IMG/VR virus record: IMGVR_UViG_3300035698_011903
Span: 1-22,056 of that record
Source: a virus
Length of the DNA stretch: 22,056 bases
Strand: one strand, 5' to 3'
The number at the start of each line of letters is the position of its first letter. Within the stretch, counting starts at the first letter, position 1. The translations under genes were made by a program, and so were the position numbers. This document shows positions 1-17,511 of this stretch, piece by piece. Below the pieces are notes generated by a model that did no database searches, was not told the DNA's origin, and saw only the letters and a program-made list of their open reading frames with translations.

Positions 1-159
1 AGCAGAAGCATAAGCAGCAGCAGCAGCAGCAGCAGCAGCATGAGCAGCAGCATAAGCATCAGCAGTAGCATAAGCAGCAGCAGCAGCAGCAGCAGCATGA
101 GCAGCAGCATGAGCAGCAGCATAAGCAGCAGCATAAGCATCAGCAGCAGCAGCAGCAGC
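1..159 (-). repeat. GCT-rich triplet repeat coding an AAAY/AAAH-type alanine tract
   Basis: All 53 codons in this stretch belong to the open frame of the gene above. Nearly all alanines use the same codon, GCT. Interruptions by TAT, CAT or GAT fall mostly on a four-codon (12-bp) rhythm. Such a tract can change length by slippage or unequal recombination without breaking the frame. The tract continues beyond the window. Confidence 0.9.
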
Positions 160-603
160 ACTTGACCATTCACTATCAGTTACACTCTCCCCATTAATCT
201 TTCTTTCATATAAATCTGCAACCCTTTGAGTCACATCTTTATCATAAGAATAATTTATTACACCATTCTCTTTATCAACCAATAACCAGTGCATAAACTT
301 AGAAGCAACTAGTGATAAATCACTACCTACTTTTATCATCTTTAAGAATCGTAGCGGAAATTCTTTGGCTATATCATTCGGTAATCCTTCAAAGATAGAA
401 TCCTGTAATCTTGCGATAGCACGAGGTATACCTAGTTCAGTTTCATATGCAGCATGATCAGCACTATGTAAAGTACATCCTACTGCACAACCCTTGCCAC
501 CTTTCCAATACTGCCCTTTTACAATTTCATCAGCATCATAATGAGCTTGCACCCTAGCTATATATTTATCTTTTATCTTTTGGTCGTTATGAAATGCTTT
601 CAT
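1..603 (-). CDS. Phage protein with Imm-5-like N-terminal part and alanine-repeat tail (3' partial)
   Basis: The frame is open from an ATG at 603 to the left edge (201 codons, no stop), so the C-terminus is missing. Residues 1 to about 145 form a compact, non-repetitive part containing KGCAVGCT and HWLLVD. From memory this resembles phage and bacterial proteins annotated as Imm-5-like putative immunity proteins; no homology search was done. The remaining codons (1-159) are almost pure alanine with Tyr, His or Asp about every fourth residue. It is the last gene seen in the leftward early operon, two bases after the preceding stop, so it is probably translated by coupling. Immunity to a toxin is only suggested by the family name; no partner toxin is visible here. 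Coding is certain, function is not. Confidence 0.85.
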   Translation of the reverse strand, partial: MKAFHNDQKIKDKYIARVQAHYDADEIVKGQYWKGGKGCAVGCTLHSADHAAYETELGIPRAIARLQDSIFEGLPNDIAKEFPLRFLKMIKVGSDLSLVASKFMHWLLVDKENGVINYSYDKDVTQRVADLYERKINGESVTDSEWSSAAAAAADAYAAAYAAAHAAAHAAAAAAAAYATADAYAAAHAAAAAAAAAYASA

Positions 604-605
604 TC

Positions 606-917
606 TTATTTTTCCTCTGTGATTTTAACAAGTGAAGGCCATGCCATTTCCAAAGTATCTGCCATGTCTCTAAAAGTTTTGATTGCCCGATTAATATTCG
701 CTTCATTTTCTCTCATTTTCTCAGAACGTTTAAATATCGTAGATAAGTCAATTTCAACGTTATCAAGTTTTAATTGTTCATTATAACGAAGCTGATATTT
801 ACTGACGAGTTCACGCCAACCATCACTATAAAGACTATCAAATCCATATAACTTACAAATCTCATATTCACTCAATTCAGCTAGGTAATTAGCTTTCATA
901 CGCCCTATAATTTTCAT
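606..917 (-). CDS. Hypothetical phage protein, 103 aa
   Basis: I do not recognise a domain. The N-terminus (MKIIGRMKANYLAELSEYEI) reads like a small beta element followed by a helix and a YGF turn. The C-terminal half is charged and helical (KRSEKMRENEANINRAIKTF), which suggests a short coiled coil. It has no membrane segment or signal peptide. The gene ends two bases before the start of the alanine-repeat gene, and the two are in the same leftward operon. The purine-rich stretch upstream of the ATG is only a weak ribosome binding site. Confidence 0.75.
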   Translation of the reverse strand: MKIIGRMKANYLAELSEYEICKLYGFDSLYSDGWRELVSKYQLRYNEQLKLDNVEIDLSTIFKRSEKMRENEANINRAIKTFRDMADTLEMAWPSLVKITEEK

Positions 918-951
918 ACTACTATCTCTCTCTCATTATTTAGTTAGGTGG

Positions 952-1164
952 TTAATCGCCATAATATTCGTCATAATATTCGGACTGCTCTTTGCGCATA
1001 ACTGTAAAGTTAACCCTCCAATCCGCACAGATAACAAATTCCTTTCTACAAGATTCGAATTCAACTAGATGCTCTCCCTCATCATTAACGCTATATAATT
1101 CTGTATCACAATGCACCTCAGTAGTACAAATACCATGGTTACATAGGGGGCAACTAATCAACAT
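952..1164 (-). CDS. Small zinc-ribbon-like protein with a degenerate second knuckle, 70 aa
   Basis: The protein opens with MLISCPLCNHG, a CPxC zinc knuckle. About 30 residues later it has EFESCRKEF, at the place where phage zinc-ribbon proteins usually carry a second CPxC before (K/E)F. Only one of those cysteines remains, so metal binding is uncertain. The C-terminus is acidic and tyrosine-rich (YYDEYYGD). Start: an AAAGGAAAG ribosome binding site lies about 10 bases upstream of the ATG. Its function is unknown. It lies in the distal part of the leftward early operon. Confidence 0.7.
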   Translation of the reverse strand: MLISCPLCNHGICTTEVHCDTELYSVNDEGEHLVEFESCRKEFVICADWRVNFTVMRKEQSEYYDEYYGD

Positions 1165-1206
1165 TTCTTTGCTTTCCTTTCTAATCGGTTAATTCTTGAT
1201 ACTTAC

Positions 1207-1231
1207 GATATGTAAATCATTTTTACATATC
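1207..1231. promoter_or_regulatory. Perfect 10-bp inverted repeat (GATATGTAAA, 5-bp loop) in an intergenic gap
   Basis: The arms GATATGTAAA (1207-1216) and TTTACATATC (1222-1231) are perfectly complementary. They lie in the 181-bp gap between 1164 and 1346, which otherwise holds no gene I can support. The same ten bases occur at 5007-5016, in the leader of the leftward early promoter. It could be a protein-binding site for the downstream genes. The hairpin is AT-rich and has no U-tract, so a terminator is unlikely. Confidence 0.4.
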
Positions 1232-1345
1232 AAAATAACGTGCAAAGAAAAACCGCTTTTCCTTTACATTACCCCATATGCTTTTTACGTTCGGCAGCAG
1301 CATAGGGTTCATACTTCTTAATTTAATGTTATTGATAGAGGAGGG

Positions 1346-1606
1346 CTATGAACTCGCGTTGCAGCACCCACAAGTCTTAGATTCCGACAGTTTATGCAAA
1401 ATATAAACCGCATCTGATCTCTTTAATCCTTTATTTTTCATAATTTCACCCATCTCTTTTCTTACCTTGGTTTCTCCCCATCTAACAGGGCATTCTTCAG
1501 ATGAATATTTCGACCTTCTGCGTTCCAATTCCTGCTTGCACTTTACTAAGTCTAGTTTTATTCCTGTCGGTATACTTTGTGATAATTTATTATAGTCAAT
1601 TGCCAT
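1346..1606 (-). CDS. Hypothetical phage protein, 86 aa
   Basis: A small basic protein with no domain I recognise. The middle is helical and charged (KQELERRRSKYSSEECPVRW), followed by a segment that could form a small helical domain (residues about 50-75). It ends in a cysteine cluster, TCGCCNASS. The ATG overlaps the end of the preceding replication-region gene by 11 bp and lacks a good ribosome binding site, so translational coupling is likely. Confidence 0.7.
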   Translation of the reverse strand: MAIDYNKLSQSIPTGIKLDLVKCKQELERRRSKYSSEECPVRWGETKVRKEMGEIMKNKGLKRSDAVYILHKLSESKTCGCCNASS

Positions 1607-2201
1607 TGATCGGGGTCAAATCTATTAGTTTTTGTAGTTGTTTAATGCGAAACTTAGTTGATTCTTGTATGCTAAAAACCTGCCCTTTTCTTGATTGGTT
1701 AATCGAGTCCCATACCCCTTCATACCCTTCGATTTGCCTTATTAAGTGGCAAGGTGTTGGGCGTGTAGGAAATTTTCTACAATGCTCCTTAAAAGCCTGT
1801 TCTACCAACAGCATTGGGTATTTATGCAAATGGCCATACATACCCTCGCTGTATAGGGTTTTGCCCTCTGTGTGTTTGTAATCGGTAGATGTAAGCTCAA
1901 AGGCTGTAGCTACGATTAATTTGAAATAATCCTTAGCACTAACAAATTGTTTATCAATGACTCCGGAGGTCTTTTTTGCATAGTTTCTACGGTCTTCAAC
2001 TAGTGGTGTTGCAAGTTCAGAACTTAGGTTTTTAACGGCAATAGCAGCTTGCTTTACTGTTATACCATTGCCTTGTATTTCAATATCCTCAAGGTTTTTG
2101 CATTTCCAAAGGTTAGCTTCCAAAATCTTCGCTAAGATCAAGTCCCCAAGAGGATTTTGAGCTGGCTGCTTGATGAGCATTGCCACACAATTTGTTGTCA
2201 T
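1596..2201 (-). CDS. Replication-region protein of unknown function, 201 aa
   Basis: This gene directly follows and overlaps the replication initiator gene, the position usually held by a helicase loader or its partner. The sequence is soluble and mostly helical. Its second half carries KYPMLLVEQAFKEHCRKFPT followed by a Pro-x-Pro turn and a helix; this pattern of an aligned W/YP helix and then (K)FPTP is common in phage replication accessory proteins. I chose the ATG at 2201 over an in-frame TTG at 2213 because GAGGG lies six bases upstream of that ATG. The overlap with the upstream gene is 89 bp. A helicase-loader role is inference from position only. Confidence 0.75.
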   Translation of the reverse strand: MTTNCVAMLIKQPAQNPLGDLILAKILEANLWKCKNLEDIEIQGNGITVKQAAIAVKNLSSELATPLVEDRRNYAKKTSGVIDKQFVSAKDYFKLIVATAFELTSTDYKHTEGKTLYSEGMYGHLHKYPMLLVEQAFKEHCRKFPTRPTPCHLIRQIEGYEGVWDSINQSRKGQVFSIQESTKFRIKQLQKLIDLTPINGN

Positions 2202-2937
2202 AATTACCCTCAATAATTTTGGTTAAATTCTTTGGCTCCAAAACCCAATCAATACTTGCATTCCAGTCCTTTACCCGCCCCATCAGGTAGTTACTTCCAG
2301 CGATTCTGATGCAGCATTCCCGCCAATCATCAAGCGAGTTCTTGAATTCGTGCTTAAGCCTTTTGCGCAGTTTCGGCATTCGTGTATCGGTTAGCTTTAC
2401 CTTCCCAGGGGAGTTTTCCAGTTTTGACCAAACTTCCTCATTCCAAACCTCAATCATTTTTTGAAAGTCGGATCTTGTATGAGTATGTGTATCAGGAGAA
2501 GGAGAATCAGGAATCAGGAGATGTGTATCAGGAGAAGGAGAATCAGCCCGAGTGCTCATGTTTTTTCCTGAAATTACTGGAGTCTCTATAACCTCTTGTT
2601 TTTCCTCAATAATTTCATTAGAGGGGATCTCGCTGTCTTTTTCGTTCTTATGTGGATTTTGGTGTTTACTAAAGTTATTTATTTGTATGTATTTCATACC
2701 ATCAACAGTGTAGCGAGTTATAAAGGAGCGCTCATGTAATTCCTCTAGTAGTCCAGAAATTTCTAGATTGTCATATGGAAGTATTTGCGCTTTGATACGT
2801 TTAGGGCGATCCTCTAGCCTTCCTTCTTTATCAGCAAGCATCCATAAGCCAGGGAAAATATATCTAGCTTCCATACTGCATTCAGCTAATACTTCATTCT
2901 CATATATTCCCGGCTTTATATTTCTAGCTCTAGGCAT
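2113..2937 (-). CDS. Phage replication initiator (lambda O-like organisation)
   Basis: The N-terminal part (residues 1 to about 100) matches the winged-helix N-domain of phage replication proteins: it has MPRARNIKPGIYENEVLAE, GLWMLADKEGRLEDRPKRIK and YIQINNFSKHQNPH. A proline/serine-rich linker with an internal duplication follows (about 110-155). The C-terminal part has the WxxEVW, LTDTRMPKLRKRLK and WNASIDWVLEPKNLTKI blocks typical of this protein type. It would bind the phage origin and recruit the helicase. The start at 2937 has an almost ideal ribosome binding site, GGAGGTGATT, directly before ATG; an upstream in-frame GTG at 2943 is less likely. The gene lies just downstream of the C4-like leader, as the replication genes do in P4. 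Confidence 0.88.
   Translation of the reverse strand: MPRARNIKPGIYENEVLAECSMEARYIFPGLWMLADKEGRLEDRPKRIKAQILPYDNLEISGLLEELHERSFITRYTVDGMKYIQINNFSKHQNPHKNEKDSEIPSNEIIEEKQEVIETPVISGKNMSTRADSPSPDTHLLIPDSPSPDTHTHTRSDFQKMIEVWNEEVWSKLENSPGKVKLTDTRMPKLRKRLKHEFKNSLDDWRECCIRIAGSNYLMGRVKDWNASIDWVLEPKNLTKIIEGNYDNKLCGNAHQAASSKSSWGLDLSEDFGS
2485..2546. repeat. 26-bp direct repeat inside the initiator gene; candidate iteron origin
   Basis: Two identical 26-bp copies lie at 2485-2510 and 2521-2546, with a period of 36 bp. The short motif ATCAGG recurs at 2491, 2506, 2513 and 2527 on the plus strand. The repeat codes the DSPSPDTH linker of the initiator. In lambda the origin iterons sit inside gene O between its two domains, which is the same relative place. 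Whether this is an origin or only a duplicated linker cannot be decided from the sequence. Confidence 0.45.
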
Positions 2938-2995
2938 AATCACCTCCGTAATAAAAAAATATCTTCCAAATCTTTTTCTTGAAAGCTAAACTGTA

Positions 2996-3214
2996 TCATA
3001 ACACCGTCCCGAATATACGGGCGCTGTGCAAAGCTTCCTCATGAGATTGGTTTGTTCTAAAAATATCGCAAACCTTGCGTTCAGACTCCGACATTTTGCA
3101 GAACTCCACAACAACACCAGAAGATTGCTTAGGAGCTTTCTTTTGTTTTTTAACTGCTTGGGTAGGAAAATTGATTATTGCGCACGTATGACGCTTAAGA
3201 TTGATTTTAGACAT
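2996..3214 (-). CDS. Icd/Ash-type small protein downstream of a structured leader, 72 aa
   Basis: The start at 3214 is set by a strong ribosome binding site (AAGGAGACAGTA then ATG). The protein is small and basic, with a Lys/Gln-rich middle (KKQKKAPKQS), a cysteine at EFCKM, and a helical end. The frame stays open upstream for another 78 codons to 3448, and that extension reads through the RNA element. Small genes annotated as Icd-like or Ash family in enterobacterial phages show the same arrangement, with the annotated N-terminus often read from the C4-type RNA. I therefore call only the part after the ribosome binding site. Function is unknown; inhibition of host division is known for P1 Icd but is not shown here. 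Confidence 0.7.
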   Translation of the reverse strand: MSKINLKRHTCAIINFPTQAVKKQKKAPKQSSGVVVEFCKMSESERKVCDIFRTNQSHEEALHSARIFGTVL

Positions 3215-3406
3215 TACTGTCTCCTTTTGGTTTAATGAATTGAGTACCAAGAACATCTTGGTGCTGGGAGCTTCGTACAGTCCAAAAGATACTGCTTGCT
3301 TATTTACCTTGCGGTTTATTACACAAACTCCCAGCCTAAAACTGGGTGCAAAAAAAGCACGCTGACGTGGTGCATAACGCTTTTGGTGGAGATACGAAGC
3401 TCCACC
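3215..3406 (-). ncRNA. C4/P4-CI-like structured immunity RNA leader (candidate)
   Basis: Read on the minus strand, the element begins with a perfect 7-bp hairpin (3400-3406 with 3385-3391, loop of 8). It continues with two small hairpins (3357-3360/3346-3349 and 3342-3346/3330-3334). Near its 3' end is another hairpin (3257-3262/3246-3251), followed by the ribosome binding site of the 72-aa gene. Two long-range complementarities converge on the same downstream segment: 11 bp between 3393-3403 and 3267-3277, and 8 bp between 3328-3335 and 3263-3270. Alternative pairing of an early hairpin with a later target is how C4 RNA of P1/P7 and CI RNA of P4 act. I could not run a covariance search, so the family assignment is inference. 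Confidence 0.5.
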
Positions 3407-3410
3407 TCCC

Positions 3411-3439
3411 ACTATGCCGTAATTGCTTTTTACTGTCAA
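3411..3439 (-). promoter_or_regulatory. Promoter for the structured RNA leader
   Basis: On the minus strand a perfect -35 TTGACA (3434-3439) is followed by a 17-bp spacer and CATAGT (3411-3416), which matches four of six -10 bases. The expected start, six or seven bases on, falls at the first base of the GGTGGAG hairpin of the RNA element. This supports an RNA made independently of the upstream early promoter. Confidence 0.55.
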
Positions 3440-3460
3440 GCTACGCATTCTTCTCTCACC

Positions 3461-3904
3461 TTATTTTTTTAAAACTGGTTGTACGCGAATATCCAGGCAT
3501 GGCTTTTCGCTGTACTTCTTATGAGCTATAATGCTAGTTACTAGGGAGTCATCGCGGTAAACTATGCCGTTCATCCCATCTAACGCACTTTTTATGTAAT
3601 TATCGATATCAGGCTTTTTAGCCGGCAATATATCACCAGACAAAGCCATAGCTTTCTTCTTCTTCGACTTAGTAATGTAACCAGGCATACAAACATAAGC
3701 CGTGATTAAAACGTTCACAGCTTCATCTAAAGGATTACGGCCTTTCATAGAGCAAGCAGCATCACTTCTTATACTACTCTCATAATTACGCGTTTCTTTA
3801 GGGGTATAGATAATAGAGCGACCATCAGCAAGTTTTCCTATTTTGCCTCGGCCCTTTGCAACAGGGTTGCCGTATGTAACAAACCTAACAACACTATTTT
3901 CCAT
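3461..3904 (-). CDS. rusA: RusA-family Holliday junction resolvase
   Basis: This is an endonuclease that cuts four-way DNA junctions, made here with the replication genes. The catalytic block is clear: KPDIDNYIKSALDGMNG at about residues 97-113, then YRDDSLV. It supplies acidic residues D99, D101 and D118/D119 plus K105, in the arrangement of E. coli RusA (D70, D72, K76, D91). The N-terminal strand (VRFVTYGNPVAKGRG) is also typical. The length of 147 aa is usual for phage RusA. The ATG follows a G-rich ribosome binding site. It probably resolves junctions made by the ERF/YqaJ recombination genes on the other early operon. Confidence 0.93.
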   Translation of the reverse strand: MENSVVRFVTYGNPVAKGRGKIGKLADGRSIIYTPKETRNYESSIRSDAACSMKGRNPLDEAVNVLITAYVCMPGYITKSKKKKAMALSGDILPAKKPDIDNYIKSALDGMNGIVYRDDSLVTSIIAHKKYSEKPCLDIRVQPVLKK

Positions 3905-3978
3905 TAGACACCCCCATCTATTTAACTATCTATTGAGCCTTTTAATCACTCATGCTCAGGAGGATTGCAGAACGCCCT

Positions 3979-4242
3979 CTACTTACTATCAAGCTCAGGC
4001 AGCATGCCTAATGCTCTTTTGTATGTATCAAGCAAATATTCAGCTTCTTCAATTTCGCTCTGCTCTTTGGCTCTAAGCTTGATTATTTCCTTAAGGGTTT
4101 TTACATCAAAGCCACTACCTTTAGCTTCTGCAAAAACCTCTTTAATATCCTGGGATATATTTTTCTTCTCTTCTTCTAAACGCTCAATGCGTTCAACAAA
4201 TTGCTTTAAATATTCTGCTGATAATCCGTTGCAGGTATTCAT
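3979..4242 (-). CDS. GapR-family (DUF2312) nucleoid protein
   Basis: The full-length 87-aa match to DUF2312 is visible: [20 protein letters not shown], then [20 protein letters not shown], and the [11 protein letters not shown] end. In Caulobacter, GapR is a dimeric or tetrameric coiled-coil protein that binds AT-rich, overtwisted DNA ahead of moving polymerases and forks. It is essentially an alphaproteobacterial family and so points to the host group. Here it lies between the regulators and the replication genes in the leftward operon, with a strong AAGGAG ribosome binding site. A role in phage replication or in masking host GapR sites is inference. Confidence 0.93.
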
Positions 4243-4324
4243 TTCCTTCTCCTTTTTGGTTAAATTAAAATTGATTCATGGTCGTATCGAGTTAATAGCA
4301 AGATAGATACGTCACTACCTTTTG

Positions 4325-4624
4325 CTATTCTTGGTTGGTATCTTTTATCATTTTATTTACACTTACGATTGTAAAGTCGTCACCTAAACATGACGCGCTA
4401 GTTACTTCACAGAAAAAATCAACACCTAAAACAGAAGCCATAAAAAAGAATTTATCAATTCTTGGAAGGCTCACTCCATCAAGGTAATCATGTAGCATAG
4501 TCTTGCTTACACCGATTAATTCCGCGTATTTATCCAGCGACATAGATGAAGCTGCATAAGATTGACGCAAAGCATCTCTAAATTTATGCCTAGTAAAGTT
4601 TTCTATTAAATCTAAATTAGCCAA
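4325..4624 (-). CDS. XRE-type helix-turn-helix regulator, 99 aa
   Basis: Residues about 28-70 form an HTH of the Cro/C1 type: MSLDKYAELIGVSKTMLHDY is followed by LDGVSLPRIDKFFFMASVLGVD. The start is a TTG at 4624, preceded by a perfect AAGGAGG about ten bases upstream. An internal ATG at Met28 would truncate the domain and has no such site. It is the second regulator of the leftward early operon and could act on the nearby operators. Ligand and target are unknown. Confidence 0.82.
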   Translation of the reverse strand: MANLDLIENFTRHKFRDALRQSYAASSMSLDKYAELIGVSKTMLHDYLDGVSLPRIDKFFFMASVLGVDFFCEVTSASCLGDDFTIVSVNKMIKDTNQE

Positions 4625-4659
4625 GGACTCTTTCCCTCCTTGCCGATATAATTACGGCT

Positions 4660-4773
4660 ATGAAAAATGAAGACATTAAGTTAATATTTTATGGAAGCTC
4701 TTGCTGTTACTATCCCTCTTGGGTGGTATATAGCCTTGCTGCTACAAGGTGGTTAGCAGAAAAAGAGGCTTAG
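4660..4773 (+). CDS. Possible leaderless 37-aa micro-protein, antisense to the operon
   Basis: The ATG lies eight bases after a perfect TATAAT (4647-4652), so a transcript could start at or near the A of the ATG. There is no ribosome binding site. The peptide starts MKNEDIKLIFYGSSCCYYPS and ends WLAEKEA. It fills the 145-bp gap between two minus-strand regulators and ends four bases inside the 3' end of the 71-aa gene. The -35 (AGGACT) is poor. It may be chance. Confidence 0.25.
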   Translation: MKNEDIKLIFYGSSCCYYPSWVVYSLAATRWLAEKEA

Positions 4774-4985
4774 ATTGCCTTTTCAACAGGAAACCAATGT
4801 ATAATTAATATTTCCCCTCCTGTTGACTCTTCAATCTCAATCTTTTTTTTGTCAGAAGGTGAGCGCTCGCCGTTTATATAGCGACGAACTGTTTCTTTGG
4901 AGCAGCCTATTAAGGTTCCGATATCTTCCTTCCCTTCCCTTTCAACCATTCTCTTTAATAATTGCCTTGCAGGTATATTTTTCAT
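4770..4985 (-). CDS. Cro-like small DNA-binding regulator, 71 aa
   Basis: The protein has a compact HTH: ARQLLKRMVEREGKEDIGTL leads into IGCSKETVRRYINGERSP, then IEESTGGEI. The final IExxTGGE pattern is the hallmark of lambdoid Cro and YdaS-like repressors after their recognition helix. It is the first gene of the leftward early operon, whose promoter contains two operator palindromes, so autorepression is likely. The start has AAGG five bases before ATG. It is the best candidate in this window for the protein that reads the AACACC operators; that link is inference. Confidence 0.82.
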   Translation of the reverse strand: MKNIPARQLLKRMVEREGKEDIGTLIGCSKETVRRYINGERSPSDKKKIEIEESTGGEILIIHWFPVEKAI

Positions 4986-5019
4986 GAGTCCTTAACCTTG
5001 TTATTTGATATGTAAAAAG

Positions 5020-5048
5020 ATAACACCACATTGGTGCTAAAATGTCAA
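5020..5048 (-). promoter_or_regulatory. Leftward early promoter (pL-like)
   Basis: On the minus strand: -35 TTGACA (5043-5048), 17-bp spacer, -10 TGTTAT (5020-5025). The spacer contains one operator palindrome. Transcription would start near 5013 and read the Cro-like gene after a short leader of about 28 bases. The 23 bases after the -35 agree with the rightward promoter at 18 positions. Confidence 0.75.
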
Positions 5049-5074
5049 TAACTATTTAACACCTAAACGGCGTT
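5022..5074. promoter_or_regulatory. Two operators of the leftward promoter
   Basis: Operator 1 is AACACC-ACATT-GGTGCT at 5022-5038, inside the promoter spacer and touching the -10. Operator 2 is AACACC-TAAAC-GGCGTT at 5058-5074, just upstream of the -35. Both have 6-bp half sites around 5 bp. Their centres are 36 bp apart, close enough to three helical turns for cooperative dimer binding. Repressor bound at operator 1 would block polymerase. Confidence 0.7.
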
Positions 5075-5101
5075 AGTTTACTAGGGTAAATTAGTGTAAT
5101 T

Positions 5102-5355
5102 ATGAATTATGGTAAAAAATTTGATTAAACAATTTCCAGCCTAAGAATTCTACCACCCAAAACAAGCCCAGCCAAAAGTGTGAAGTTATAAATCTAGAGC
5201 AAGCCTCTGAATTTTCTAAACTACAAGAAATATTAAATCTTCCTAAATGCCCTAAGGTAAGATTCTGCCTTTTTTCTCAAAAAAATAATCCTTATGAGTG
5301 CTCTGGTTTTGAAAAATGCCGAAAAAACAAGGCTTTGTTTGATTATTTTAACTAG
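5102..5355 (+). pseudogene. Small cysteine-rich gene broken by a one-base frameshift (or lacking a normal start)
   Basis: From 5125 to 5355 a 76-codon frame is open and protein-like, with KCPKVRFCLFSQKNNPYECS and FEKCRKNKALFDYF; four cysteines could bind metal. It has no ATG, GTG or TTG near its start. The ATG at 5102 opens another frame that stops at 5126. One extra T near 5125 would join the two into an intact 84-aa protein. So it is either a frameshift mutation or assembly error, a recoded gene, or a remnant. It lies exactly between the two early promoters, where lambda-type phages keep their repressor, but no HTH is visible. A second ATG at 5109 in the third frame would need a shift near 5135. 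Confidence 0.5.
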
Positions 5356-5365
5356 GTTAAGCAGT

Positions 5366-5418
5366 AAAACACCTTTTTGGTGTTTTTATTGTTGACACTA
5401 AAGCACCAATATGGTGTA
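5366..5418. promoter_or_regulatory. Two operators of the rightward promoter
   Basis: Operator 3 at 5368-5384 is AACACC-TTTTT-GGTGTT, a perfect palindrome that extends to 8-bp arms (5366-5373 and 5379-5386). Operator 4 at 5402-5418 is AGCACC-AATAT-GGTGTA, inside the promoter spacer. Their centres are 34 bp apart. They mirror the pair at the leftward promoter in both position and sequence. Confidence 0.72.
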
Positions 5419-5420
5419 AT
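5392..5420 (+). promoter_or_regulatory. Rightward early promoter (pR-like)
   Basis: A perfect -35 TTGACA (5392-5397), a 17-bp spacer and -10 TGTAAT (5415-5420, five of six bases). The start would fall near 5427, leaving a leader of about 26 bases with a GAGGAA ribosome binding site before the first gene at 5453. An operator fills the spacer, so a bound repressor would shut the promoter. Confidence 0.8.
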
Positions 5421-5452
5421 GGCTTCATAAGCAAAAAACATTTGAGGAAATA

Positions 5453-5746
5453 ATGAGCAAGCAATACATCCACACATGGAAGTGTAAAAATGGTAAGGCA
5501 TTTATTCAAGAGCACGATGTTGCAATAGGTAATATTGATGCTGCGATAGAAGAATATTACCAGCAACAAAGCATCAGCTTTCGATATTCCCATACATTGG
5601 TGATTGATACAGAAACTCTAGCTTGTCACATGGTAAATATAGAAGCGGAAATTGAATTTAGGGAAGAGCAAGAAGAAGAAGATAGCAAGCCTGAATATGA
5701 AAGCCTTACAGGCCATGAAATGGGTGTTTGTGCAGGGAGGGTTTAG
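5453..5746 (+). CDS. Hypothetical early protein, 97 aa
   Basis: This is the first gene of the rightward early operon. It has a GAGGAAATA ribosome binding site directly before ATG. The protein has a mixed strand/helix first part (MSKQYIHTWKCKNG, then NIDAAIEEYYQQQ) and a very acidic region (EIEFREEQEEEDSKPEYES). No known domain is recognised. First genes behind a pR promoter are often regulators or host takeover factors, but no DNA-binding motif is visible. Confidence 0.75.
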   Translation: MSKQYIHTWKCKNGKAFIQEHDVAIGNIDAAIEEYYQQQSISFRYSHTLVIDTETLACHMVNIEAEIEFREEQEEEDSKPEYESLTGHEMGVCAGRV

Positions 5747-5748
5747 TT

Positions 5749-5901
5749 GTGGCAAATGAAATCTACATACGCTGGAACCAGCCACATTACACCATAGAAA
5801 CTTGGTCTAAGCTAATGGCTATAACTATGCACAATTGCTTAAGCCGTGGTGAGTCTTACTTCCCACCTAGATTAAAGCCATCACAGATTAAAAGAGGTTA
5901 G
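5749..5901 (+). CDS. Hypothetical micro-protein, 50 aa, GTG start
   Basis: The GTG start is supported by a strong GGGAGGG ribosome binding site seven bases upstream, inside the end of the previous gene. The peptide reads MANEIYIRWNQPHYTIETWS at its start and ends with a basic tail (RLKPSQIKRG). It fills the gap between two other early genes with only two bases on either side, as expected for a tightly packed phage operon. Function unknown. Confidence 0.65.
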   Translation: MANEIYIRWNQPHYTIETWSKLMAITMHNCLSRGESYFPPRLKPSQIKRG

Positions 5902-5903
5902 TT

Positions 5904-6131
5904 ATGGATATGCAACAAATATTCAATAAGTTTTCTGCTAGCAAAGCAGCTTTAGAAACCCTAGCACGCGATACTTTTGTTTCTGAAGAAGTTTATTCGA
6001 TGCTTGAAGCTTTGGAAGCACTAGAAAAAACAGAGCGTAAGAATTTAAAGCGCTTCCACGGTGCGTTATCTAATATTGCAGATAGAGCATCAAAGTTAAG
6101 TTCTAAAATACAATTGGAGTTAAGGAAATAA
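5904..6131 (+). CDS. Hypothetical helical protein, 75 aa
   Basis: The protein is almost entirely helical and charged (MLEALEALEKTERKNLKRFH), so a helical hairpin or short coiled coil is likely. It carries no cysteine, membrane segment or signal peptide. A GAGG ribosome binding site precedes the ATG. Its TAA stop overlaps the next ATG (TAATG), so the two are translationally coupled. No function is recognised. Confidence 0.72.
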   Translation: MDMQQIFNKFSASKAALETLARDTFVSEEVYSMLEALEALEKTERKNLKRFHGALSNIADRASKLSSKIQLELRK

Positions 6132-6286
6132 TGAGCAAAAATTATATTACAAAATTAGCAGCGGTAATGATTATTTCGGGCTTTGCTTTCGCAATTGATA
6201 GCCCACCAAAGGAATATTGCAATGCTGATTACTGCATTATGGAAGGCCAAACACTTGAACAAATAGGTATATATCATGGAAAATAA
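6131..6286 (+). CDS. Small secreted protein with signal peptide, 51 aa
   Basis: A 51-aa frame starts at the ATG that overlaps the previous stop, with AGGAAATA as ribosome binding site. The N-terminus is a clear Sec signal peptide: MSKNYITK, a hydrophobic core (LAAVMIISGF), and an AFA cleavage site before Ile-Asp. The predicted mature part is only about 29 residues, with two cysteines five residues apart (CNADYC) and an acidic, soluble tail. It overlaps the ERF gene by 11 bp. A periplasmic protein in a recombination operon is unexpected. It might act in superinfection exclusion or envelope modification, but nothing in the sequence proves this. Confidence 0.7.
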   Translation: MSKNYITKLAAVMIISGFAFAIDSPPKEYCNADYCIMEGQTLEQIGIYHGK

Positions 6287-7073
6287 CAAAGAAGAAATAG
6301 TAAGTGCTGAACTAAATAAATTAGATTTAACGGTAGATTCAAAAAGCAGTAAGGTTGCAATCTCTCAGCCTGAAGATGCAATGCTTGCCATGATTGACAG
6401 GGTTTGTTCAGACTCAAACTTTGACATAGCCAAGATGGAAAAGCTTGTTGACATGCGTAATTCCGAGTTGTGTCGTGTAGCAGAAATAGATTTTAATCGC
6501 GCATTTTCAGAAATGCAGAGTAGCTTACCAAGAGTTGTTGCTACGCATAAGAATACTCAGACAAATTCAAAGTATGCAAAAATTGAAGATATAAACAAAG
6601 CTGTTCTACCTGTACTTAATCAATATGGCTTTGGTATTTCATTCAGGATTCTATCACAAGAGAAGGAAGGTGTAATAGTACGTGCAGTTCTTACCCACTC
6701 AAGAGGTCACAAAGAGTCTACAGACCTGTTCATGCCATACGATAAAACAGGAGCACAAGGCAAAGTAAATAAAACCGATATCCATGCCACAGGCTCAACT
6801 ATCACCTATGCCAAGCGTTATGCGATGTGCATGTTGCTTGATATTAGCACTGGAGACAATGACGGCAACAATAAGCCAGCACAATTTATAACTCAACAGC
6901 AAGCAGAAGAAATTAACCGTTTATTGGAAGAAACCGCTTCCGACAAAGTAAAATTTGTACGTGATTATATGAGGGCTGAGGCGGTTACAAAAATCCTTTC
7001 TGGAGATTATAAAAAAGCCATTAACGCTCTTGAAACAAAACGTAAAAAAGGAAACAGCAATGCAAATTTATAA
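6276..7073 (+). CDS. erf: ERF-family single-strand annealing protein
   Basis: ERF proteins anneal complementary single strands and stimulate recombination in phages such as P22. The core is visible at about residues 65-200: AEIDFNRAFSEMQSSLPRVV, then TNSKYAKIEDINKAVLPVLN, GFGISFRI, and HATGSTITYAKRYAMCMLLD with a GDNDGN turn. The C-terminal helical region (TQQQAEEINRLLEET, then DYKKAINALE) is the usual appendage of this family. The length of 265 aa fits. The next gene is the partner exonuclease and overlaps it by 14 bp. Its own ribosome binding site is weak, so translation probably couples to the secreted micro-protein upstream. Confidence 0.93.
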   Translation: MENNKEEIVSAELNKLDLTVDSKSSKVAISQPEDAMLAMIDRVCSDSNFDIAKMEKLVDMRNSELCRVAEIDFNRAFSEMQSSLPRVVATHKNTQTNSKYAKIEDINKAVLPVLNQYGFGISFRILSQEKEGVIVRAVLTHSRGHKESTDLFMPYDKTGAQGKVNKTDIHATGSTITYAKRYAMCMLLDISTGDNDGNNKPAQFITQQQAEEINRLLEETASDKVKFVRDYMRAEAVTKILSGDYKKAINALETKRKKGNSNANL

Positions 7074-7686
7074 TGATATAGAGCAAGGTTCAGTTGAGTG
7101 GTATACCGTTCGATCTGAAAAACCTACCGCGTCTTGTTTTGACAAAATATTATCGCCAACGGGAAAACCTTCAACACAATCAGGAGCATATGCCGAAGTG
7201 TTGCTGGCTGAACTAATGACTGGAGGTTCAGTTGAAGAGTGGGAAGGGAATCAGTGGAGCGAACGAGGAAATAGCCTTGAAAGCGATGCTGTTCTTTTTT
7301 ACGAGCTACAAAATGACGTTGAGACTAAGAAAGTTGGTTTTGTTACTAATTATGGAGTTGGATGCAGCCCAGATAGATTTGTTGGAGATGACGGACTATT
7401 AGAAATTAAATGCCCGAAAGCCTCAACGCACGTTAAATATCTCTTAAATAATAAAATGGAACCAAAATATATACCGCAAGTTCAGGGTCAACTTTATGTC
7501 ACAGGGCGCAAGTGGTGCGATTGGGTTTCATACCACCCGCTAATGGCTCCGGTAATTATTCGAGTTGAGCGTGATGAATCGTATATCACGAAATTATCTG
7601 GAGAGTTACATAAGTTCCTAAAGCTATTGGAAAGCAAAAAACAGTGCATGATAGAGCTTGGGCACATTAAAGAGGAGGCAGTATAA
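7060..7686 (+). CDS. YqaJ-family recombination exonuclease
   Basis: This is a nuclease of the lambda-exonuclease/YqaJ group that resects DNA ends for the annealing protein. It has the start helix QGSVEWYTVRSEKPTAS and ERGNSLESDAV. The PD-(D/E)xK core is GCSPDRFVGDDGLLEIKCP (Asp, then Glu-Ile-Lys), and PQVQGQLYVTGRKWCDWVSY supplies the conserved QxQ motif. I chose ATG 7060 because AAAGGAAA precedes it; an upstream in-frame ATG at 7030 lies deep inside the ERF gene and lacks a ribosome binding site. The resulting 208 aa is typical. Confidence 0.93.
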   Translation: MQIYNDIEQGSVEWYTVRSEKPTASCFDKILSPTGKPSTQSGAYAEVLLAELMTGGSVEEWEGNQWSERGNSLESDAVLFYELQNDVETKKVGFVTNYGVGCSPDRFVGDDGLLEIKCPKASTHVKYLLNNKMEPKYIPQVQGQLYVTGRKWCDWVSYHPLMAPVIIRVERDESYITKLSGELHKFLKLLESKKQCMIELGHIKEEAV

Positions 7687-8726
7687 TGTCGGAATTATTA
7701 GCAGTACAGGAACTAACGCCTGCAATTTTTACCAATAACGGAGTTGACCCACTTCTGAAAGATATTCAGGAAAAGGTTGCCAATTTTAATGCCGACATAT
7801 CAACCGAGGAAGGTCGCAGCGAGATAAAATCTTTTGCCTATAAAATAGCAAGGTCAAAAACTGCTCTTGATGATATGGGTAAAGAGCTTGTTTCTGAATG
7901 GAAGAGTAAATCAAAATTGGTTGACGCAGAACGCAAACGTGTTCGTGATGCTATGGATGAAATGAGAGATGCTGTGCGCAAACCTCTTAATGACTGGGAG
8001 GATGAAGAAAAAGCCAGAATTGAAAATCACGAAAACACCATATTAGAAATTATTAACATGGGTGGTATAGCTGAAAAAGACTGGCAAACTTTGAATATAG
8101 ATTCTCTTAAGCGCAGCCTAGAACAAACACTAAAGAATTTTAAGGTAATGGATTGGCAGGAGTTTTCTGAAAGAGCAAATCAGATAATTCCTGAGGCAAT
8201 AGAAAAAATTGAGACTGCCATTGCAAAACGTGAGACGCACGATAAAGAGCAGGTTGAACTAGCTGAGTTCCGAAAAGAAAAAGCCGAACGTGATAAGCGT
8301 GAGTATGAAGAAAAACTAAAAGCCGAAGCTGCTGAAAAAGCTCGTATAGAAGCAGAAACTAAAGCTGCTTATGAAAGGGTCGAGACCGAGCGTAAAGTAA
8401 AAGCTGAGGCAGAACGTCACGAGCGTGAAAAGAAAGCTGCCGAAGAAGCAAATCAACGTGCAGAAGCAGAGCTGAAAGCTGCCAAAGAAAAAGCTAAACA
8501 TGATGCAGAGGAAGCCGTCAAACGTGAGCGCGAAAGAGTTGCTGCCAAACAGGAGGCAATACGCCAGAAAGAATTAAAGCGCGAATCCAACAAAAAGCAT
8601 AAAGCAAAAATTCACTTAGAAATAAAAGATGCACTTGTGCTTTGCGGTCTTAATCCTTTAGATGCAGATGCGGTTATTGAAGCGCTTTCTCGGGGTAAAA
8701 TCCCTAACATATTAATTAAGTATTAG
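7686..8726 (+). CDS. Coiled-coil phage protein of the recombination cluster, 346 aa
   Basis: The N-terminal third (about 1-170) is helical and includes LVSEWKSKSKLVDAERKRVR. Residues about 195-305 are an unbroken Ala/Glu/Lys/Arg coiled coil of the sort often mislabelled TolA. The last 40 residues form a small conserved module (DALVLCGLNPLDADAVIEAL then GKIPNILIKY) found in phage proteins that accompany YqaJ nucleases. There is no membrane segment, so a true TolA function is ruled out. Its stop-start junction with the exonuclease (TAATG) and a GAGGAGG ribosome binding site show coupled expression. It may be a structural partner in recombination; this is inference. Confidence 0.85.
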   Translation: MSELLAVQELTPAIFTNNGVDPLLKDIQEKVANFNADISTEEGRSEIKSFAYKIARSKTALDDMGKELVSEWKSKSKLVDAERKRVRDAMDEMRDAVRKPLNDWEDEEKARIENHENTILEIINMGGIAEKDWQTLNIDSLKRSLEQTLKNFKVMDWQEFSERANQIIPEAIEKIETAIAKRETHDKEQVELAEFRKEKAERDKREYEEKLKAEAAEKARIEAETKAAYERVETERKVKAEAERHEREKKAAEEANQRAEAELKAAKEKAKHDAEEAVKRERERVAAKQEAIRQKELKRESNKKHKAKIHLEIKDALVLCGLNPLDADAVIEALSRGKIPNILIKY

Positions 8727-14742: not shown

Positions 14743-17511
14743 TTAAACGCCTGTTAATGTTATGTTTACCTGGCCCCCAACATCGATACCAGAGGAGTTG
14801 AATATTTGCACCTTGCAGCTTGTTGTTGTAACGCTACTGTATGTCGCGTACAAAGCTGATGTGCTATTAACGCTTACTTGTATATTTGGTGTAAGATTAA
14901 ATTGCCTTATGTTGTAATCGCTATATGTGATTATCGTTCCACCACTAGCAGCGATTGTAACATCACCAGTTTTTTCAATACGCTCAACTGCATCCGCTAC
15001 AACTGTGAATTTTTGAATATATGGCACTGCTATGTCGTTTGTGGTAATTATTTTGTACTTTACATACCTTGCTGTTACCGTACCAATCGTCCAGTCTTCA
15101 AATGCACTTGGATTAGGCGAGTTGCCGTATGCCACTTGAAAATCATAATCAGGAACACCTGACTCACCCACTCCTACTGCAACCGCAATTGGATTGGCAT
15201 ACATCCGTACCACGGTAATGAATCCCAAGTCAATTTCACCTGTGATGTAAGTACTTGTCGTTTCTGAATTTAATACATAGGTGTCAAAAACATCAAAATT
15301 ATCACCTGAGCTATCTCCATTAGAGCTTTCTGGTACTAACCGACCAGATACATCGTGTATCAACGTATTGCTTAATGAGCCTACCCAGCGTGGGCTTTGT
15401 GCCAACGATTGAATAATATCGTATGTATTGATAATAGTTACATCAAATGAAGTATAGTTAGCAGATTCATTCCCACTAGTATCAACCGCTTTTATCGCCA
15501 CTGTATGGCTACCTGGAGGAAGCCCTGCATTTGTAACAAGGGTTCCTTTTGTTGCTTTAGTTAGTACGTTAGCATCCTCCCAAACAAAAGTACCTTGTGC
15601 CGAAAATCTTATTTCAAACCCCTGAACATCCTTGTCGCTTATATTATTCCAACGAAACGTAGTAACATTGCCATTTTGTTGCGCAGTAAAGCCAATTACA
15701 TCGCTTGGTGCAGCAGTTTTTCCTATAACAGTATGAGTACTTGATGTTGACCACTGCGATTTAATACCAAGTTGATTAATGAAGCGAGCACGTACAATAT
15801 AATTTTGACCATCTTCTACATCTAAAATATAATGAAAAGATTCAGCTCCATCAACATAACCAGCCTTTAAAAAATCGCTATCACCACTTTTTTGATATTG
15901 AATCTCTACCTGACCACCATCTATAACAAAAATATTAGTAGATTGTGTCCAACTAGCCTTTATGCGTGAAAATACAGTTCCATCTTGCCTGATAAACAGT
16001 TCATTTGTACCGCTAGTAAGCGTTAAGCTAACCGGAGCAGTCACACTATAAGGTGATGGTAAGTTAGTATTAGGGGAGTCATTTCCTTGCCCCTCGTCAC
16101 TGCTTGACCATGAATAACTAGAGCTGGCATCCTCTTGCAAGCGCAAAGATATTTCACCACCAGGCTCTAGTATCCATGACATGACTCTAAATACTTTATT
16201 AGACCAGCCAAGTGTTGCATTTGTTACTTTTACAGTGTCGTTAGCACGTAGTTGCATTGCATTAGCGTTGCATTGAAGGGTTGTAACAATTCCTTGTCGC
16301 GACTTTAATAGTAAAATCTTAGCTATACGCTGAGCACGAATAATATCTGTTTCAAAGGGCAGTTCAATATCTGTTATTAATTCTTCGCCACCGTCCTCAG
16401 TAACATAAGTACTGCTTGTCTGTGGTGGAAAGTCCGTAGGTTGCCACTGCTTTTCTGGAGATACAAATACACCACTTACTTTATTAAACCGCTCTCTCTT
16501 GCCTGGCCTTGAAACTAATACACCTTGACCTACTATCCAATCATTATCTATCGTAAGTGTTGGTGTTGCGTATGCTCCAGGATTTATATTATATGTTCCT
16601 GTAGTAAATGTTATATTACCAGCGATACTACTTAACAGCTTATCCATGTTTCTAGATACCTGGTCTTTTGTTGATAAAACACCATTACACGCATAACGCT
16701 TTTGTGTGCCTCCCCCTTCAAGACTAACATTTTCATCACATGTGTTTGCTGCTGCAGATATTTGCGTATCATCAAGATCACCTGATGTTGCGCCTATTCC
16801 ATAACTACTATTTGCAAGATAATCACGTATACATAATGCTGCATTGCTGCTATATGCAGTTGAAGTAGTTCGTGGGTCATATACCTTTTTACCCTTTATA
16901 ATAAAAGATATATTAGGTATTCCATTTGGAAACACATCAACACTTTTACGCAAGCGTATATATGCATAAGCAATTCCGCGCAGTCTGTGATTAGAAGTCC
17001 ACTCCTCTACCTCACTAACAAGGTCACTATCGGCAGATTGATTATTTGTGCCTAAATGTTTTTTAACACGAACATATGAAGTGCTATCGGCATAATAAGG
17101 TGCTTCATCAGCTTCTCCATTACTATCAAGGCTTACGGTATTTTCATCAAAATACATTTCTCCAATTTCCTGCACCTCATGCCCTGCTAGAGATATGATA
17201 AGATGCAAATATGTAACGCCGTTTGACTCTGAGGTGTCAGCATAAACTAAAGCTCCAGATACTTTTACTTGACCATATAAAACCCTGTGAGACTCAACAG
17301 ATGATTTTATAATAAGACTACGATTTCCAGCATCGATACTAAACGACGGACTTTGTATGTCATCTTTAAATATAGCCGCTCCGGCAAATCCAATGGCAGA
17401 TGCTACCGCCGCACCAACCAAGGCCGCGCCAATTGCACCAACAGTTGCTACCGTGGCAGTAGTGGCGGCAGCGGCAGCTACAGCAGCTACGAAAGGTATA
17501 GCTGGAGGCAA
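14743..17511 (-). CDS. Tail tip attachment protein, J/host-specificity type, 922 aa
   Basis: The protein begins with a very Ala/Val-rich hydrophobic stretch (about 1-50), usual in this family, where it may contact the membrane or TMP. Tip domains follow: EIGEMYFDENTVSL, HRLRGIAYAYIRLRKSVDVF, PNISFIIKGKKVYDPRT, NPAALxLRDYL-like AALCIRDYLANSSYGIGA, QWQPTDFPP, and RAQRIAKILLLKSRQ. Residues about 605-700 are a fibronectin type III domain (VIGFTAQQNGNVTTFRW ... GSHTVAIKAVDTSGN). The C-terminus is a beta-rich region. The start is TTG at 17511, supported by GGAG eight bases upstream. It forms the distal end of the tail and recognises the host. Confidence 0.92.
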   Translation of the reverse strand: MPPAIPFVAAVAAAAATTATVATVGAIGAALVGAAVASAIGFAGAAIFKDDIQSPSFSIDAGNRSLIIKSSVESHRVLYGQVKVSGALVYADTSESNGVTYLHLIISLAGHEVQEIGEMYFDENTVSLDSNGEADEAPYYADSTSYVRVKKHLGTNNQSADSDLVSEVEEWTSNHRLRGIAYAYIRLRKSVDVFPNGIPNISFIIKGKKVYDPRTTSTAYSSNAALCIRDYLANSSYGIGATSGDLDDTQISAAANTCDENVSLEGGGTQKRYACNGVLSTKDQVSRNMDKLLSSIAGNITFTTGTYNINPGAYATPTLTIDNDWIVGQGVLVSRPGKRERFNKVSGVFVSPEKQWQPTDFPPQTSSTYVTEDGGEELITDIELPFETDIIRAQRIAKILLLKSRQGIVTTLQCNANAMQLRANDTVKVTNATLGWSNKVFRVMSWILEPGGEISLRLQEDASSSYSWSSSDEGQGNDSPNTNLPSPYSVTAPVSLTLTSGTNELFIRQDGTVFSRIKASWTQSTNIFVIDGGQVEIQYQKSGDSDFLKAGYVDGAESFHYILDVEDGQNYIVRARFINQLGIKSQWSTSSTHTVIGKTAAPSDVIGFTAQQNGNVTTFRWNNISDKDVQGFEIRFSAQGTFVWEDANVLTKATKGTLVTNAGLPPGSHTVAIKAVDTSGNESANYTSFDVTIINTYDIIQSLAQSPRWVGSLSNTLIHDVSGRLVPESSNGDSSGDNFDVFDTYVLNSETTSTYITGEIDLGFITVVRMYANPIAVAVGVGESGVPDYDFQVAYGNSPNPSAFEDWTIGTVTARYVKYKIITTNDIAVPYIQKFTVVADAVERIEKTGDVTIAASGGTIITYSDYNIRQFNLTPNIQVSVNSTSALYATYSSVTTTSCKVQIFNSSGIDVGGQVNITLTGV

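Follow-up and report, generated by a model that had tools for sequence, protein, structure and literature searches.

An sRNA-Xcc1-like RNA in the leader of phage replication genes, very likely a C4/CI-type antisense switch

The window, by which we mean the whole stretch of 22,056 nucleotides analyzed here, is a 22-kb phage fragment, virus record IMGVR_UViG_3300035698_011903. On the minus strand, its early region encodes two small HTH proteins, a GapR-like protein and a RusA resolvase, and contains the leader studied here together with genes for a 72-aa protein and a replication initiation protein. The GapR-like DNA-binding protein gene of this region (3979-4242; PF10073, 3.9e-32) is the main hint of an alphaproteobacterial host. 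Positions 1-160 hold a hexamer repeat array (AGCAGC, 26.7 copies) within a minus-strand open frame, where it encodes an alanine-rich tail. The 72-aa protein had no usable match in family scans (Pfam, PHROG), its AlphaFold model (pLDDT 53) was too poor for a fold search, and the related-locus search returned no relatives of the 150-aa frame in which it is contained. The parts of the locus, named by the roles that we propose for them, are the following.

3411..3439, minus strand: predicted sigma-70 promoter, TTGACA-17-CATAGT (10/12 consensus), start expected at ~3405
3385..3406, minus strand: target hairpin a1, perfect (GGTGGAG-CTTCGTAT-CTCCACC), beginning at about the expected transcript start
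3403-3393, minus strand: a1 proper, GGAGCTTCGTA, 11/11 complementary to a' (3277-3267)
3380..3386, minus strand: target b1, CCAAAAG, the complement of b' (P3 loop)
3350..3373, minus strand: terminator-like stem GCAC/GTGC plus T7 (sequence GCACCACGTCAGCGTGCTTTTTTT), loop CACGTCAG, family version CCCCGTCAG
3330..3346, minus strand: alternative hairpin CCCAG-TTTTAGG-CTGGG, which can occupy the 5' strand of P1; function putative
3260..3335, minus strand: antisense RNA domain, C4-like, with an sRNA-Xcc1-like fold (three-way junction)
3282..3288, minus strand: antisense site b', CTTTTGG, in the P3 loop, complementary to b1 (3386-3380) and b2 (3230-3224)
3267..3277, minus strand: antisense site a', TACGAAGCTCC, in the P3-P1 linker running into P1, complementary to a1
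3224..3230, minus strand: target b2, CCAAAAG, overlapping the SD AAGGAG (3226-3221) of the 72-aa gene
2996..3448, minus strand: 150-codon open frame spanning the whole element, its ATG (3448) upstream of the predicted transcript start
2996..3214, minus strand: 72-aa gene, the first under the leader (ATG 3214-3212, SD AAGGAG 3226-3221)
2113..2943, minus strand: replication initiation protein gene, next after the 72-aa gene and co-directional with it (best match 1e-49 among PHROG replication initiation families)

A sequence-only reading of this DNA had already described the promoter, the perfect hairpin at its start, the complementarities of 3403-3393 to 3277-3267 (11/11) and of 3335-3328 to 3270-3263 (8/8), the frame open across the whole element and a replication gene further on, all of which are present as described. 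The segment 3263-3277, which it took for a target, does lie before the ribosome binding site of the 72-aa gene, but 36 nt away (3263 to the SD) instead of about 50. The promoter (3439-3411) is the joint best sigma-70-like match within 1-8000, and its position relative to a1 is as in the P1/P4 leaders; taken alone it is weak evidence, since promoter-like matches are not enriched in 1-8000 (15 found versus 24.4 in shuffles). Measured from the RNA, a1 (AGCTTCGTA) lies at -65 and b1 (CCAAAAG) at -50, and the a1/a' run counts 9 nt in the family comparison, or 11 nt including two P1 bases. The terminator stem is short and weak, at about -4 to -5 kcal/mol, and a terminator search by energy alone misses it (-3.7).

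In the antisense domain, 3335-3328 (GCTGGGAG) pairs with 3270-3263 to form P1 (model-aligned strands GCUGGGAG/CUCCCAGC), P2 is capped by the GNRA loop CCGCAAGG (3314-3307), and P3 (3295-3291/3281-3277) is followed by the linker, with ACC after P1. The start codon stands 48 nt after P1, and the leader fold has a z of -2.95. An Rfam scan of the leader gave a single match, sRNA-Xcc1 (RF02221), at 3335-3255 minus with 35.1 bits, where the curated cutoff is 53 bits (E 0.0077 when all of Rfam is counted and 1.8e-6 when only this model is), aligned over positions 1-87 with the P1-P2-P3 topology, the GNRA-capped P2 and the 3' ACC. The C4 model RF01695, which the sequence-only reading had proposed for such a search, had no match in the window or in 3150-3500 up to E 10, with the positive controls P1 C4 (68.8 bits) and P4 CI (74.9 bits) recovered; the window RNA was therefore not assigned to RF01695. 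A covariance model of our own, built from eight sRNA-Xcc1 elements with the window excluded, gave one match in 630 kb, at 3336-3259 minus of the window (26.1 bits, E 0.0037), in an alignment where P2 and P3 of the window pair poorly. Judged by these scores and the shared topology, the window RNA is a divergent, sub-threshold relative of RF02221.

Weak model scores (35.1 and 26.1 bits) are what one might expect of hairpins and complementarities arising by chance in AT-rich DNA. In dinucleotide shuffles, however, an a'-complementary run of at least 9 nt within 100 nt upstream, combined with a second site CCAAAAG, as in a1 and b1, arose in 1/20000, and CCAAAAG within 60 nt downstream in 434/20000. 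Together with the single model match in 630 kb, a terminator motif that matches the family and a start spacing that fits it, these shuffles make chance so very unlikely an explanation as to be hardly credible.

To place the window in its family, viral and genome contigs were searched with the core pattern AATACAANACCCGNAAGGGGAAT, which yielded 203 distinct sRNA-Xcc1 elements. The fold covaries: among 97 aligned matches, both partners vary in 18/20 pairs and 96.1% of cells are paired, with a covariation score of 0.561 versus 0.166 in shuffles (0/500). For the antisense sites, each RNA's b' (P3 loop) and a' (P3-P1 linker) were matched against the flanks of its own locus and against those of other loci in 91 non-redundant elements (88 sRNA-Xcc1, the window and two copies from a related phage, L002). 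Upstream a' runs of at least 7 were found in 65% of own flanks versus 8% of mismatched ones, upstream b' matches in 75% versus 7%, and an ordered upstream a1-b1 pair with a sum of at least 12 in 82% versus 6% (0/5000 permutations in each case). Among viral loci a b' site lies 15-50 nt 3' of the RNA in 75%, versus 8% mismatched, and 37/44 of these downstream sites touch an SD with a start codon; the viral relative L121, for comparison, has CCAAAAGGAGTCAGAAATG as its b2. Between b1 and P1, 55/91 leaders have a T-run terminator whose loop reads CCCGTCAG or similarly, against 0.56 expected from shuffles; the conserved loop motif is a better argument for a terminator than energy. The loop itself, which a plain terminator does not need, is conserved in these leaders as at 3373-3350 of the window, and it may have a further pairing partner. 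The median distance of the start codon from P1 is 49 nt (IQR 44-54, 170 loci), and the window has 48. Sequence and statistics together show the fold, the complementary sites and the order in which these stand, and also that the sites are conserved in pairs.

The sequence-only reading had called for compensatory changes as support. Complementarity is conserved across the family, but no close relative of the window leader was found in the collections searched, nor by pattern searches for its own subtype, so compensatory change within its own lineage cannot be shown. The phage L002, whose Rep N-terminus is 67% identical, has two leader copies of similar geometry (L002:1673-1800 and 4170-4310), one before rep and the other before a 455-aa gene, with complementary a-sites that differ between the copies (ATAAGAGG/CCTCTTAT and AGCGGAAG/CTTCCGCT). 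As covariation evidence these copies were set aside as suggestive only, neither of the RNA models nor the b-sites being matched, and a pattern of the L002 type was discarded because its two matches fall in sequence without the element. A scan with RF02221 over 35 phages with related Rep gave no match, indicating that the element generally does not travel with this replication gene.

For an independent set, 263 genomes belonging to the same order as one alphaproteobacterial MAG were searched; 31 of them contain the RNA, with up to ten per genome. The a1-b1 pair was present in 89% versus 7% mismatched (36 elements, 0/5000), and the fold covariation was repeated in 37 rows, the window included. 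The b2 site was not above chance in these 36 chromosomal elements (22% versus 24%), from which it follows that SD occlusion is not universal. That MAG (G036) and its order (e.g. L338-L373) are small-genome Alphaproteobacteria, in which a1-b1 is kept and b2 at the SD is not. Many of the elements precede HTH-regulator-like genes, as judged from translations only.

These comparisons bear on which part of the leader is the antisense RNA. The sequence-only reading had proposed a C4/CI-type antisense element; the class is strongly supported, yet the anatomy is partly reversed. The segment 3263-3277 is not the target but part of the antisense RNA (linker a' and the 3' strand of P1), the start hairpin 3406-3385 is the upstream target a1, and 3335-3328 forms the 5' strand of the closing stem P1 instead of a second antisense contact. 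That reading also overlooked the sRNA-Xcc1-like fold, the second antisense site b' along with b1 and b2, to which it is complementary, and the terminator, whose loop is conserved in the family. In its version the antisense RNA would be a short transcript from 3405, carrying the hairpin 3406-3385 and ending at the terminator 3373-3350, with 3263-3277 as mRNA target, and a terminator after a1/b1 would indeed yield an RNA of ~55 nt, as with IsrK in P4-like leaders. We consider this version very improbable, as the conserved, covarying domain is 3335-3260, the P3 loop, with which b2 at the SD pairs, belongs to that domain, and the processed antisense RNA in P1/P4 is the downstream domain. With the antisense RNA assigned to 3335-3260, a stable RNA is expected to start near 3335, not 3405.

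The open frame had been likened to the Icd/Ash frames, and it could be argued that the repeats are by-products of coding for such a protein, with the frame open from 3448 to 2996. An Escherichia Oslovirus likewise has a frame (L082 2440-3231) that runs open through the entire RNA element into the regulated gene. The Icd/Ash-like role is not borne out: the 150-codon frame had no match to Phage_ASH or Icd-like protein families, its ATG lies upstream of the start set by the promoter, and the family is constrained in base pairing, which makes this explanation extremely unlikely.

The order of parts in the window, a1-b1-terminator-RNA-b2/SD-gene, is that of the P1/P7 C4 leader (RF01695; targets RF03163 c4-a1b1). 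In P1, a1 TTGACAG at -82 and b1 GTTAGTG at -68 are followed by the terminator, C4 and b2 GTTAGTGA at +27 at the SD. In both, the RNA has three stems, with b' lying in the loop of P3 and a' in the linker; the window differs from C4 in a shorter P1 and a different P2 with a GNRA loop and a conserved internal-loop motif, and further in lacking a C4 model match, in a regulated gene that is not ant, and in that no a2 target of at least 5 nt was found downstream of its RNA. P4 CI (seqA/seqB/seqC) has the same order as the window, with GTGAGAA at -160, TTCACAGG at -144, the terminator, CI and b2 TTCACAGGA at +40 on the SD; CI matches RF01695 (74.9 bits), whereas the window does not. The spacing of the parts in P1 and P4 also resembles that in the window. 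C4 is cleaved by RNase P on the 5' side of P1, with b' masking the ribosome-binding site and a' conferring specificity (PMC5320573), and P4 CI RNA controls replication genes, transcription being stopped by pairing with seqA and seqC (PMC4825925). The second gene of the window is likewise a replication initiator. From its layout, the window element appears to work like C4/CI though it is no RF01695 member.

We consider it highly likely that the leader, 3439-3215 minus, is a C4/CI-type antisense switch on an sRNA-Xcc1-like RNA, and the folded RNA with its target sites very probably switches the replication genes off as do C4 and CI of P1 and P4. A transcript from ~3405 would carry a1 in a hairpin loop, b1, the terminator, the antisense RNA, b2 over the SD, and the 72-aa and replication genes. 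Excision of the RNA domain would take place at the base of P1, with RNase P as the probable enzyme, since P1 resembles an acceptor stem with ACC after it. In a cell already holding the phage, a' and b' would pair with a1 and b1 of new transcripts, favouring a stop at the terminator, and b' would pair with b2 on read-through mRNA, blocking the SD. The replication operon would thereby stay silent in the lysogen, and likewise when a phage carrying the same a/b code superinfects. We infer termination and SD occlusion in the window from the C4 (PMC5320573) and CI (PMC4825925) literature, and processing, action in trans and the role in lysogeny are likewise proposed steps. The same sites could instead pair within one transcript as a purely cis leader of the attenuator or riboswitch kind that releases no free trans RNA: the lowest-energy fold of 3406-3215 pairs a1-a' and b1-b' in cis, and most collected loci keep target and RNA within one leader. 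We regard this as unlikely, given that b' matches b2 at the SD too, that the P1/P4 relatives of the same anatomy act in trans (PMC5320573, PMC4825925), and that sRNA-Xcc1 is a stable 88-nt RNA in Xanthomonas (PMC2996969).

Pfam on 118 representative downstream proteins gave Bro-N 26, pRha 12, P22_AR_C 12, KilA-N 10, and P22_AR_N, AntA and ORF6N 7 each, counts that overlap since one protein may carry several domains, and NCBIfam placed 25/118 in XAC0095; the collected elements thus stand mostly before phage antirepressors and regulators. The 72-aa gene that the window leader would control is not an antirepressor gene. Chromosomal copies in Xanthomonadaceae (L216, L246, L281, L258 and others) have XAC0095-family genes downstream, several with a1-b1 and without b2. 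A blastn lead pointed to an Escherichia Oslovirus in which two sRNA-Xcc1 elements exceed the cutoff (74.5 and 65.4 bits); each lies directly before an antirepressor-like gene, the second of which is AntA/AntB by Pfam. A single Oslovirus genome combines one C4 element with two of the sRNA-Xcc1 kind and so has three separate C4-like leaders. The Oslovirus leader elements are located as follows.

1937-2026 and 2476-2561 of L082 (Escherichia phage PPwrbA_EH2201): Oslovirus leader elements
14922-15009 of record LC645427.1: Oslovirus leader element

The collected sRNA-Xcc1 loci share the leader anatomy a1-b1-terminator-RNA-b2, and their fold is that of the window. In its first report, sRNA-Xcc1 measures 88 nt by RACE and is strongly expressed (PMC2996969), in keeping with processing to an RNA that begins at P1. 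Later sources place it in association with integrons and upstream of symE (PMC12444791) and treat it as a possible virulence or vesicle RNA for which targets have been predicted (PMC12189769). The literature also describes it as HrpG/HrpX-dependent, without a proven target. Among the papers surveyed that mention sRNA-Xcc1, the only one that also names 'C4 antisense RNA' gives the two as separate annotations. A link between sRNA-Xcc1 and C4 was not found in the portions of the literature examined, though the 2011 sRNA-Xcc1 and 2017 c4-2 papers may note it. The name c4-2 was reportedly introduced by a 2017 paper.

On the evidence of these loci, sRNA-Xcc1, a widespread orphan family, is probably the same kind of switch as C4/CI. 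Because a1-b1 is conserved as pairs and the downstream genes are mainly antirepressor or XAC0095 genes, we propose, as a likely reading, that sRNA-Xcc1 as a whole is a second, widespread C4/CI immunity scaffold, in which interchangeable a/b codes on a fixed RNA would control phage antirepressors. This scaffold would be reused on chromosomes and in integron cassettes, ahead of XAC0095, HTH regulators and symE; once captured there, a copy could provide anti-phage antisense immunity or an antitoxin-like brake. The proposal offers a function and a readable pairing code for a family known since 2010 without a proven target. The a/b code would predict from sequence alone which phages share immunity and which antirepressors are silenced, and it would explain why symE in Xanthomonas integrons is preceded by sRNA-Xcc1. 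Phage immunity through RNA, as in P1/P4, would then extend to many proteobacterial phages, alphaproteobacterial ones included.
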